A program made the translations under genes and the position numbers. The notes beneath the pieces were generated by a model. The model made no database searches. It was not told where the DNA came from and was given only the letters and a program-made list of their open reading frames with translations. A stretch of DNA of 64,000 nucleotides from Thysanoteuthis rhombus (Eukaryota > Mollusca > Cephalopoda > Oegopsida > Thysanoteuthidae): assembly GCA_963457665.1 (NCBI GenBank), contig OY735209.1, positions 61,499,654 through 61,563,653 of the forward strand, in the 5' to 3' direction. Shown piece by piece: positions 3,646 through 53,880 of the stretch; positions within the stretch are counted from its first letter, which is position 1; every line of letters starts with the position of its first letter.

Positions 3646-4317
3646 AAAGTAACTCATAGGAAATATCAAGTCTCTTTAAAAGTCTTCTGTTGAAATTAGA
3701 GGCAGGATTGCCAAATTAAAATCTAAAAAGCATTAAGTCAGATCAAATATAATCTCTGAAGGAACTACTGATCTGGACAATCCTCCAGAAGAAAAAGCCT
3801 GTACAGCGCCTTTGTAAATCAGTGTGTTCCTAAACTTGGACGTTTTCTATTTATCGAATTCTAACAACACATAGGAGTCTGAGTGGGATATCCCATTTCT
3901 GATTTCATCAACAGACTTTTCAGGAGAACTGACGCTCCCAAACCATAACCAACTTTATCCCAACATGTTCTTGAGATAGACCTCATAAAGCAGCAAACAC
4001 ACATACACACACATTGTGTTTTAGATATAAGCACCAATAATCAATCCTTTAAGAAAATTCATTTTCTGTTCAGTTGTGTTTGAGTTTATTTGCCACCCAC
4101 TCGGTAATGGAAAAATGAATGATAATTTTATTCTATTCAATTGGAAGCAGCTTTTGCTTTAGAGTCTTATGTTATAGCAATGAAAAAAATATCCAGAAAT
4201 TACAAAGAAAAACAAGAGAATATTAAATCGATATGTATGCTAAGAATTGTTAGGATATGAGAGGCATTCCCAAGTCAGTTGAAGAAAATCATGTCTAAAT
4301 TAGAGTTGAAGCTAATA
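3646..4317. other. Spacer without recognised features
   Basis: AT-rich sequence with a short (CA)n tract near 3999-4012. No coding similarity or repeat-family match was noticed. Confidence 0.5.
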
Positions 4318-4712
4318 TGTCTGGTTAAGTCACTTGATAGAAAACGTCACGTGATGTCTTTTGACTGCATGCCGTGTTGGGGGTAATCAATGAACAAGTA
4401 GCTTCTAACACTTTTTATTGGGAAGTGATCTCTAAAAAAAGTCTGAATTTTCAAAAAAAACAAGCAGACATTAACTATACTTAGTACAAAGTTTTATTGT
4501 AAATTAAATACTCCACTAAAACCCCTCATGGAGTAGAATTTTTGAAAAATAAAAAAAAAATTTCTTTTGAACATAATAAGGAATGAATGTTGAAAATTTC
4601 AGCCCTCCAGCTTCATAAGTGCAGCCCGTACACATGATACATAGCAACCAGCTGGACCGACTTAAAAATTGATGAAACCTCTGTTGACAGTTTTGATTGA
4701 TGGTTTCTAATA
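4318..4712 (+). repeat. Family X copy C (near full length)
   Basis: Starts at GTCTGGTTAAGTCACTTGAT, keeps the AGTCTGAATTTTCAAAAA core and the TGTTGAAAATTTCAGCCCTC block, and ends TTGATTGATGGTTTCTAATA, which helps define the 3' boundary of the family. Confidence 0.88.
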
Positions 4713-5576: not shown

Positions 5577-5860
5577 TTAAAAAGTCTGAATTTTCAAAAA
5601 GCAAGTGTGATTGCAGCTGGGCACAAGAAATCAATTCAGCATAAATTTAGATTGTAGATTGTATCCCCACACACAAGCACAATAAAATTCCACTTGTCCC
5701 CTCTAAAAAAAATACAAAATGTTTTTTCTAGACATAATTAGGAATAAATGTTAATTGATACAGCCTATATACATGATACATATATACATAGCCAGCCAGC
5801 CAGACCAATTTTAAAGCTGAAGAAACCTTTGCTGACAGTTTTGCTTGAGGGTTCCTGATA
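5577..5860 (+). repeat. Family X copy D (5' module missing)
   Basis: Begins inside the core (AAAAGTCTGAATTTTCAAAA) and retains CTAGACATAATTAGGAATAA, the GATACATATATACATAGCC tract and the 3' module (GAAACCTTTGCTGACAGTTT). Confidence 0.8.
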
Positions 5861-5904
5861 TTAATACCATGTGGGTTATTGATATATGTAGATTCATTTA
5901 GGCC

Positions 5905-50516: not shown

Positions 50517-50663
50517 TTTTAGTGTTTAACAAAAGGCAAGAGGAGTCAATTAGATAATGATCAACCTGTTTTCCAAATTTTAATTAATCACCACCAACAC
50601 AGCATGCTACCAAAAGACATTGATTGCATCACAGTTTCTATTATGCGACTAAGCAGATCTATT
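50517..50663 (-). repeat. Family X 5' module and core (copy R)
   Basis: The minus strand reads AGATCTGCTTAGTCGCATAA, CAATCAATGTCTTTTGGTAG, CATGCTGTGTTGGTGGTGAT and CTCCTCTTGCCTTTTGTTAA. Confidence 0.8.
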
Positions 50664-51137
50664 GCCTGTGGGGGGGGGTCCCTGTGTGTATAAGAGAGGC
50701 CCAGATACTCTGTGTATATCCATGTGCTATACCATATGGTAAAACAAATAAGTGAGGGTAGATCTTTGATATCATTACACTAACCCTAGGAAGGATGCCA
50801 TAAGCCACACTCTCAACCATCTGGAGAATACCAGAATGTAGCAGTCGAAAAGGGTACCAGAATATAGCATATAGAAAGTTGGTTACCAGAGGCTAAAAAG
50901 CTAGGCTCTGCTGAAAGCAAAGAAATAACAGTAGTACCGGGAAATAGACTGTATGAGTTTGTTTTTTTTTAACTCTTTTGTCATATATATAATTGAGTGT
51001 GGAAGGTAAATAAGGTTGGGCTCTCCCTTTGTTTGTTTAGAAACATCTTTTTAGTCTATGAATTTGTGTAGTGTAAGAAAAGTACTTGCTAATTGCAATG
51101 ACAATCTTACCAGCCATATTTCCAATCAAGCGAAGAA
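50664..51137. other. Spacer, nothing recognised
   Basis: Contains a G9 tract at 50670-50678. No coding or repeat match. Confidence 0.5.
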
Positions 51138-51657
51138 TCACTTGAGTATGGCAAGTTTTTGGTAGAGCAAGTTCAACCTTAAAGAACAAGAAAATCCGAT
51201 CAGTCCTGAAAAAGAAGGGTCTATAACAAATGCATCCTCCTGATAGTCATTTATGGAACTGAAACATGGAAGACAACCAAGAGACTGACCCTCAAATTGT
51301 GAATCATGCAACACACTCATGGAAGAATCATACTGAACCTCAGATTGAGATATCGCAAGACAGCACAATATATCAGAGAGAAAACAGAAGTCCGAGACAT
51401 CATAGAATCCATTAAGAAACTCAAATAGCAATGAGCTGGTCATGTTGCAAAAATGACAGATAACCGATGGACATTATGACTCACAACATGGATCCCAAGA
51501 GATCACATGCAAAACCATGGCTGGCAGAAAACAAGATGGCGTGACAAGCTAGACAAGTTCAGAAAGTATTGGCTCCATGACACCCATGATAGACAGCTCT
51601 GGTGAATCCTCGAGAAAGTCTATGTCCAACAACTGACAATAAAAGACTAATGATGAT
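51138..51657 (+). mobile_element. RTE-clade LINE 3' end with tail (R11)
   Basis: Shows CILLIVIYGTETWKTTKRLT, RYRKTAQYIREKTEVRDIIE and, after a stop in the KLKWQW segment (AAATAG where AAATGG occurs elsewhere), ELVMLQKWQITDG out of frame. The ORF2 tail (KFRKYWLHDTHDRQLW) follows, ending ACTAATGATGATC. Stops and indels make it non-functional. Confidence 0.88.
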
Positions 51658-51975
51658 CGACCTTTACCCAATTCTCTCCTCTCCAGCATTTCTTTCACAG
51701 TTATTTTGTTCATATATACATCATACAAGGAAAACCAATATGGCGTCTTCTCTTCTTTTACTACCACCACCACCTTACAGTGTATCTTTACGGATGATAA
51801 CTCGAATATAAGTAAATTTATAGAGGGGTTGTTAACTATAACAGTAATGGGGATTGAATCAAATAACATTGAAAATGACTCTCCACTACCAGTAAAAATG
51901 GACACGTCTTGGGCTTGAAGCAATAACAAACTGAAACTACAGTTACTCCTTCATGTACAAGTCTTAAAGCGAGAA
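51658..51975 (+). other. Possible upstream part of the TGCD ORF, uncertain
   Basis: Coding-like composition (YKENQYGVFSSFTTTTTLQC, IFTDDNSNISKFIEGLLTIT) in an open frame at 51706-51918, immediately before the next relic. Frame continuity is broken. It may be the N-terminal part of the same element or chance. Confidence 0.3.
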
Positions 51976-52683
51976 ATGACCAAAGCTTCTGCAGTTCAAA
52001 TCATTGCAAGTTGTTTTTCTGGCATGTCTGCAAAAGTTTCTGGTCATTCTGTCAAAGATGAATATACAACAGAAATACCATGCCTCAGTCCTGATATGGA
52101 AGAAGATGGTGCTCAAAATGCAGCAAAAAATGGAATAAAACATTGTTGTACTGTTGTCTGATGTTTTTGAGCTACTTATGTACTACTGGGATATCTTCCT
52201 ATCAAATAGTCTTTTGGAACTTTGGTTAAGTACTGGTGTTGGGGATTCTACAAAATCCATTTGAATACTCATGTTAGCATCTTGTGTTAAAAATGACCCC
52301 GGCTGTGCACTACTTACTTTTCATACACTGACTGGATGTGATTACACCAGCAAGATGGAGAACATGCAGTCTTAAAGGCAAATCTGGTCAAACACTTAAA
52401 GAACTTTGAGTCTGCATCATGTTGTATAGACAACATCCTGTCTGCTGGCCAAGCATATCTTGTACAAGTTTTAAAGAATAGCAGCAAATGCTCAATAATA
52501 GACTTACCGAAAACTCACATGTACAATCACAGAAAAACAGAATCCTTAGATAAACTTCCTCTTACAAACCATGCCACAAATGAAGACATTCATAGAGTAT
52601 ATTTTTCCAAACATCAGATGCTATCTTTATTACACCCTCAGTCTTTGGGACTAATTTTTTCTGATTATCCAAAGCATCAGTAA
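51976..52683 (+). pseudogene. Decayed 'HTLTGCDYTSK' protein, possible PIN/FEN-like nuclease
   Basis: Three coding-like segments lie in successive frames. Segment 1 (51976-52161) reads MTKASAVQIIASCFSGMSAK and PCLSPDMEEDGAQNAAKNGI. Segment 2 (52142-52375) reads IVVLLSDVFELLMYYWDIFL, LELWLSTGVGDSTKSI, stop, ILMLASCVKNDPGCALLTFH and TLTGCDYTSKMENMQS, stop. Segment 3 (52366-52683, 105 open codons without a needed ATG) reads AVLKANLVKHLKNFESASCC, NILSAGQAYLVQVLKNSSKC, HRKTESLDKLPLTNHATNED and HQMLSLLHPQSLGL. I recognise the motif order (acidic pair, D-V-x-x-LL, HxLTGCDxTSK, LPPTSHA) from a multicopy invertebrate protein family that lacks a standard name. GCDYTSK resembles the GCDY-C-x-S-(I/L) motif of FEN1/XPG nucleases; that fold assignment is inference. 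Two frameshifts and one internal stop show it is dead. Copy number in such families suggests a mobile element. Confidence 0.6.
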
Positions 52684-53880
52684 TATAAAAACATTAATTT
52701 CAAAATGCTGAGTGGATTTTTTTTTCTCCAAGAGATGTGGAATTTCCATTTATAGCTGAGTTCCATAACTATTTGACCTCTGGTGACCTAATTATCAATT
52801 TACATAAAAACTATTGTAATAAATAAAGTTCTTCAATACAAAATGTTTTGAATATTATTTGTTGTTTTATGTCATAATTCTCAAAATATCGAATTTTCTG
52901 TTTGCCCTATCCCTAAATTCTGGTATTTAAAAGTTTGGGAGTTGCGAGTGACATAATGGTACATGGCACAAACTCTGGCTGGAACAATTAGGGTTCATTT
53001 TGCATTAACTTTTTATGCCTAATATCAGATCTTTCAAACGATATTGGTATAACTATAAATATGGAGTAAACGAAAGTATATTTGAGTAGTAATGCAAATT
53101 TAATTGTATCAAAACTGGACGCAGGTTTCTTATCTTGAGAGTGTCCATATGTAAATTGATCCCCTTTCTTTTGTAATTATATTTTCTATGGTGATTTTCT
53201 TCTAGGGTGGGCTAAATATAGGTTTATAGAAATATATGGGGAAAGCATTACTTCAGCGTGCCCCCTTTATACGTTTACTTGTTTATCTATTATTATCATG
53301 CAAGCATATTTTATTCAGTTTTCCTATATAATATATAAATATAGATTTATTTGATTTATCATATAAAACTCTTATTATTACTTATATAAAAACTTTTCTG
53401 GTCGAACCTTGCCTGGGATGGTACAAAATGCTGGCACCTCTACTGCTAATACAATGAAGATGATCCTCACTGGATACTCTGTTTTGTGGCCTTGTGCCAG
53501 ACTAAGCTGAGATTGGTAAATAACTATAAACATCCATTGATGATTTCATTGGTAAGTTATCTTTTAAAGTTGGCAAGCAACTTCTGACAGTGTAAGGAAG
53601 GATTTATCTGTGTTTTGTACCACCATTTCTTGGCACATCAGGAAGCTTTTAGTACAAGATGACACAATTTATTCCATCTTTTCCTCAACCTTTTAATTTG
53701 CTTGATACTTTGTATTTTTTTTGTATAAAATTGTTGAAGGAATTGCAGCTAAATTTCATTTGACAACATTTTGTGGGAACAATTTCCAATCATCCAGAAA
53801 TAGCACCAATCTGATTTCATTTACTCTGAAAGGAACAGAATTATAGATTCTGACGTTCAAATTCTATTAGAATCCAGAGG
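52684..53880. other. Spacer; possible element end near 52920
   Basis: GGTATTTAAAAGTTTGGGAG at 52922-52941 resembles a hAT-type right terminus and may close the element carrying the TGCD relic; no left end was confirmed. A GC-richer patch at 53400-53520 is unexplained. Confidence 0.35.

Follow-up and report, generated by a model that had tools for sequence, protein, structure and literature searches.

The question raised by this locus is what kind of element left behind a broken reading frame with the motif HTLTGCDYTSK, and whether the protein it once encoded included a nuclease. TGCD motifs also occur in multicopy "uncharacterised" proteins of many invertebrate genomes. We analyzed the whole 64-kb stretch (here called the window; C12:61499654-61563653) together with the 2.73-Gb genome (514 contigs) to which it belongs. 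We conclude with good confidence that the window carries the remains of an old class II (DNA) transposon: a dead copy, shortened by internal deletion, of a family whose intact members would have carried a single long sense-strand gene between terminal inverted repeats (TIRs) of ∼290 bp.

A frameshifted and stop-broken coding relic carrying HTLTGCDYTSK was found on the plus strand at 51919-52680. Aligned to another genomic copy, L009, the TGCD-protein relic spans 51810-52636 (plus strand, frameshifted, with a stop) and is 93% identical over 821 columns. Three overlapping plus-strand frames were distinguished, which together read as one broken protein: frame a (51919-52158, the third plus frame) is an upstream piece with a degraded EEAD region at its end, frame b (52139-52372) holds a degraded SSDTD region and HTLTGCDYTSK, and frame c (52342-52683, stop to stop), recognized from its reading frame and its genome matches, covers the region 3' of the TGCD motif. 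The earlier note had placed IVVLLSDVFELLMYYWD and HTLTGCDYTSK in one frame, and both indeed lie in frame b, separated by one TGA. The downstream segment that it had described in another frame and without a convenient ATG corresponds to frame c, which runs for 113 codons from stop to stop and has no early ATG. The feature lies where the note had put it (51976-52683), but it is larger, covering ∼50655-51087 plus 51810-52950. The length of stop-to-stop ORFs was rejected as proof of coding, since the AT-rich window contains 14 such frames of ≥113 aa, versus 2.8 expected for Markov-1 random sequence. We consider the relic real because the 113-aa piece has homologous matches across the genome, not because of its length. 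No other copy of the relic was found within the 64-kb window, and neither Rfam nor tRNA scanning of this stretch yielded matches.

Frame c matched at least 64 genomic places at an E value of ≤0.001, the window's own included, with a best other match of 2.2e-50; this count is a lower bound (150 of 159 candidates scored), in which some copies are represented by two or more rows. Stops were present inside the match in 40 of the 64 rows, and the 24 stop-free rows cover a short match only, which does not imply an intact gene. With a typed 122-aa probe of the TGCD region, at least 149 places were matched (150 scored of 379 candidates; likewise a lower bound, in which split copies and rows from the window itself are counted). 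The matches mark a multicopy family dispersed over many contigs. This same-genome search for paralogs had been proposed in the earlier note; it provided these relatives, and no intact copy or intact homologue was found among the copies examined.

For closer comparison, 20 copies were fetched, 9.9 kb each. The other 19 all aligned to L009 in pieces of ≥150 columns, mostly with 64 to 77% DNA identity, which indicates that the copies are old and mostly independent. Parts of the window segment 51810-52636 were 67 to 78% identical to 18 of these 19 copies. L009 lies on the same contig as the window copy, 620 kb away, and its positions 3891-4709 account for the 93% match. This segment also has its frame offsets and stop in common with the window copy, whereas the remaining parts of the two are only 73 to 79% identical, which suggests a local duplication or a gene conversion that took place once the sequence had decayed. 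More divergent TGCD lineages (L043, L046, and L049; ∼28 to 41% identical to the main family) were detected in the same genome, and thus several related element families once seem to have been present. A tandem array of ∼57-bp units was observed 3' of the TGCD coding relic in one copy (L004 563-1137, on C26; L004 is the same copy as L010).

Inspection of the flanks for terminal repeats, a check also suggested beforehand, revealed that the gene is flanked by TIRs in several copies. The ends of L009 at 1801-2090 and 5601-5888 are inverted repeats with 83% identity over 293 columns, i.e., TIRs of ∼290 bp, and their pairing score was 188, compared to a maximum of 20 in 200 Markov-shuffled pairs. 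When each locus was judged against the maximum of 200 such shuffled pairs, inverted-repeat ends exceeded it in 6 of 9 loci: L009, L014 (68%), L024 (71%), L020 (72%), L025 (71%), and L022 (58%). Pairing was not above shuffles in L019 and L026, whose ends were set by eye and may miss the left TIR, or in the window copy, whose outer right end is lost. By eye, the left termini carry the sequence (T)AGACCATTGGCYGAGGGG and the right termini CCCCTCAGCMAATGTATYA. The element measures 4.1 kb in L009 and, as judged from motif matches, ∼5.9 kb in L014. Of 4 copies in which both ends could be inspected, one (L025) has, by eye, the 4-bp word TATT on both sides, a candidate target-site duplication.

The window copy has undergone internal deletion, with large inner parts missing, and has also lost its outer right TIR. 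The decayed left TIR (50655-50860, plus strand), with its outermost CATTGG end eroded, pairs with both TIRs of L009: 50661-50841 is 78.6% identical to the left TIR, and 50651-50860 aligns with the right TIR, taken as its reverse complement, with 73% identity in 208 columns. It is followed by a 5' internal part (50860-51087, plus strand), homologous to L009 2535-2750 (74%). Alignment to the other copies places a 3' part at 52654-52950 (plus strand), in which the right TIR is reduced to its inner edge. The copy's own left and right parts scored 14.3 when paired, against a shuffle maximum of 16.7. A probable LINE 3' tail (51124-51657, plus strand), recognized by repeat matches within the window, lies inside the element and is not part of it. 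This repeat matches 12 more pieces elsewhere in the window and ends in an ATGATG-like tract, and ORF pieces near two of the matches gave sub-threshold reverse-transcriptase matches. A different repeat at 50527-50663, with 6 further pieces in the window, ends right at the element's left TIR.

One long sense-strand coding frame was identified at ∼2500-5110 of L009 (the inner 2.6 kb), where it is broken by L009's own shifts. Among 21 aligned sequences (20 copies plus the window; sense strand only, 90-bp windows), stop codons were depleted in this frame, with 0.003 to 0.006 per codon in the best windows versus 0.049 to 0.085. No frame stood out in some of the 90-bp windows, and a window farther upstream (2231) was likewise stop-free. 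All-frame protein conservation between copies was discarded as uninformative coding evidence, since every frame matches at this divergence. Fragments of several copies were assembled by eye into the protein, with motif strings giving the commonest letters. It consists of a 5' part, a middle part (EGNWDLHLQTVQ..., ...LEQTINRS), the TGCD domain, and a C-terminal cysteine cluster reading CNCTKCNSDKC.... Within the TGCD domain, the motifs follow in the order HLVDVMANT, LDLVFDSYVERSIKDSERR, PDVEEAD, SSDTDV, ELW, and HTLTGCDYTSKVGTKHAALK. All parts would belong to one continuous protein; as no intact copy was seen, its reconstruction combines fragments that come from different copies.

The 5' part was best preserved in L014 and partly present in L016, L020, and L025 (E values of ≤1e-3), with weak traces in L017, L018, and L026 (E values of 0.004 to 0.2). 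A Pfam scan of this part found no family at its cutoff. It seems to resemble DDE regions of multicopy invertebrate proteins, and it may be the transposase catalytic region. Taken together, the multicopy state over many contigs, the long TIRs in several copies, and the single long sense-strand frame argue for a mobile element, as had been supposed from the window sequence. In the mechanism that we infer as the most likely one, a putative DDE-type region would cut and join at the TIRs, the nuclease-like domain would trim or nick branched DNA intermediates, and the cysteine cluster would bind DNA.

The earlier note had further proposed that the TGCD protein is possibly a PIN/FEN-like nuclease. 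The motif order agrees with this: by eye, the succession EEAD, SSDTD, GCDY resembles that of FEN/XPG nucleases. EEAD, SADTD, and H-x-x-x-G-A-D are all conserved in the divergent lineage L046, and GCN and GCD in the pieces of L043 and L049, which do not cover all motifs. E50, W52, H85, G89, T93, and K99 were invariant in 5 aligned sequences. In a 24-row alignment, the acidic columns retained the first E in 4 of 8 rows and the D's in 8/9, 11/15, 12/16, and 15/20; these positions were not clearly better kept than average (mean commonest residue of 0.65 over 121 columns). Neither Pfam nor PDB searches, whether with pieces of the window, fragments of other copies, or profiles, returned a match for this protein at a curated cutoff or with a significant E value. 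A consensus sequence for this protein produced a weak match to NYN (PIN-like; E value of 0.029); the other weak matches were unrelated. The motif order suggests the proposed nuclease; Pfam, PDB profiles, HH comparison with FEN1, and AlphaFold2 did not confirm it and, with copies as decayed as these, did not refute it either. For the TGCD domain, we lean toward a PIN-like fold.

The best-surviving alternative is that the TGCD region is a helical or DNA-binding transposase domain rather than a nuclease, and that its resemblance to FEN arose by chance. We regard this as doubtful, yet it deserves to be taken seriously. It is favored by the lack of any XPG or PIN match in Pfam among 24 family members and by hhalign comparisons of profiles A2, A3, and A4 (decayed fragments as queries) with archaeal FEN1, whose E values of 0.44 to 0.49 fell within the spread of 40 column shuffles per profile. 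Among the A3 shuffles, one of the 40 was an outlier (score of 134, probability of 99.3) and was taken as an artifact. PDB profile searches point in the same direction, with no matches for profile A3 and no nuclease for profile A2 (three unrelated chains at E values of 0.48 to 1.6), as do the low-confidence AlphaFold2 models (pLDDT of 57.6 and 50.6), the first of which had 0 of 112 Foldseek matches at an E value of ≤0.001. In contrast, the order E-A-D, S-D-x-D, G-C-D fits the FEN fold, the helix-strand-SxDTD core of the first model reached a pLDDT of 75 to 83, and the best A3 segment on FEN1 placed GCDY...K-x-A over GTDY...KKA, albeit over 15 columns and not significantly.

We call the relic a dead member of an already known kind of element. 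We judge it unlikely that it represents a transposon lineage, widespread but undescribed, whose transposition protein contains a fused FEN/PIN-type nuclease that acts alongside or instead of the usual DDE chemistry. Still less probable is that the TGCD domain was the sole catalytic domain and the transposase itself, so that a PIN/FEN-fold nuclease and not a DDE enzyme moved the element. L009, with both TIRs and mostly the middle and TGCD parts within its 4.1 kb, would suit such an arrangement, as would the fact that a DDE family was unrecognized in all pieces scanned; however, the 5' coding sequence of L014 was not found in L009, which looks internally deleted because L014 and other copies carry this extra sequence, and we know of no transposase of PIN/FEN fold. 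A captured or single-copy host nuclease pseudogene outside any transposon is barely credible, since it is favored by the gene-like character of the relic and nothing beyond, and is contradicted by the dispersed multicopy state and by the TIRs that flank the gene in several copies.

Relatives outside the genome were sought in several collections. None was found in viral contigs (queried with frames c and b, a DNA pattern, the consensus sequence, and alignment A5), in bacterial and archaeal genomes (pattern search), in plasmids (frame c only), or in phages (frame b only). Among the passages that a literature search brought up, none described this family. DUF6589, tried as a candidate for the Academ transposase, had 0 matches, but its control was also silent. 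The class II transposon reading has practical consequences: with the TGCD protein tied to a TIR element, multicopy TGCD proteins of invertebrates become annotatable as transposon-derived, and the TIR link gives a concrete test of the role that a FEN-like nuclease would play in transposition.

Among known systems, FEN1/XPG nucleases are similar by eye in the order of acidic motifs and in GCDY followed by K-x-A, and differ in that the TGCD protein has no significant sequence or profile similarity to them. The Kolobok lineages KolobokP, E, and D are likewise DNA transposons in which a nuclease accompanies the transposase; as far as the excerpted text of PMC9587614 goes, their nucleases are of the His-Me finger, PD-D/ExK, or DEDDh type, and KolobokP has terminal direct repeats, unlike the long inverted repeats found here. 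We infer the superfamily from description, by which an Academ-like element (AcademX is reported to encode a nuclease) would be the most natural candidate home. An excerpt of PMC10045372 gives target duplications of 3 or 4 bp for AcademX and 9 or 10 bp for AcademH, related to the encoded nuclease and helicase, and AcademH helicases are mentioned in fungi in a portion of PMC10799480. Academ elements are class II like the window element, and their mean length of 5,565 bp in bivalves, according to the excerpted text of PMC10294476, is near the 4.1 to 5.9 kb seen here. The same excerpt places Academ among molluscs almost exclusively in bivalves, unlike the cephalopod source of this copy; an Academ-like family in a cephalopod would, if true, be worth noting.
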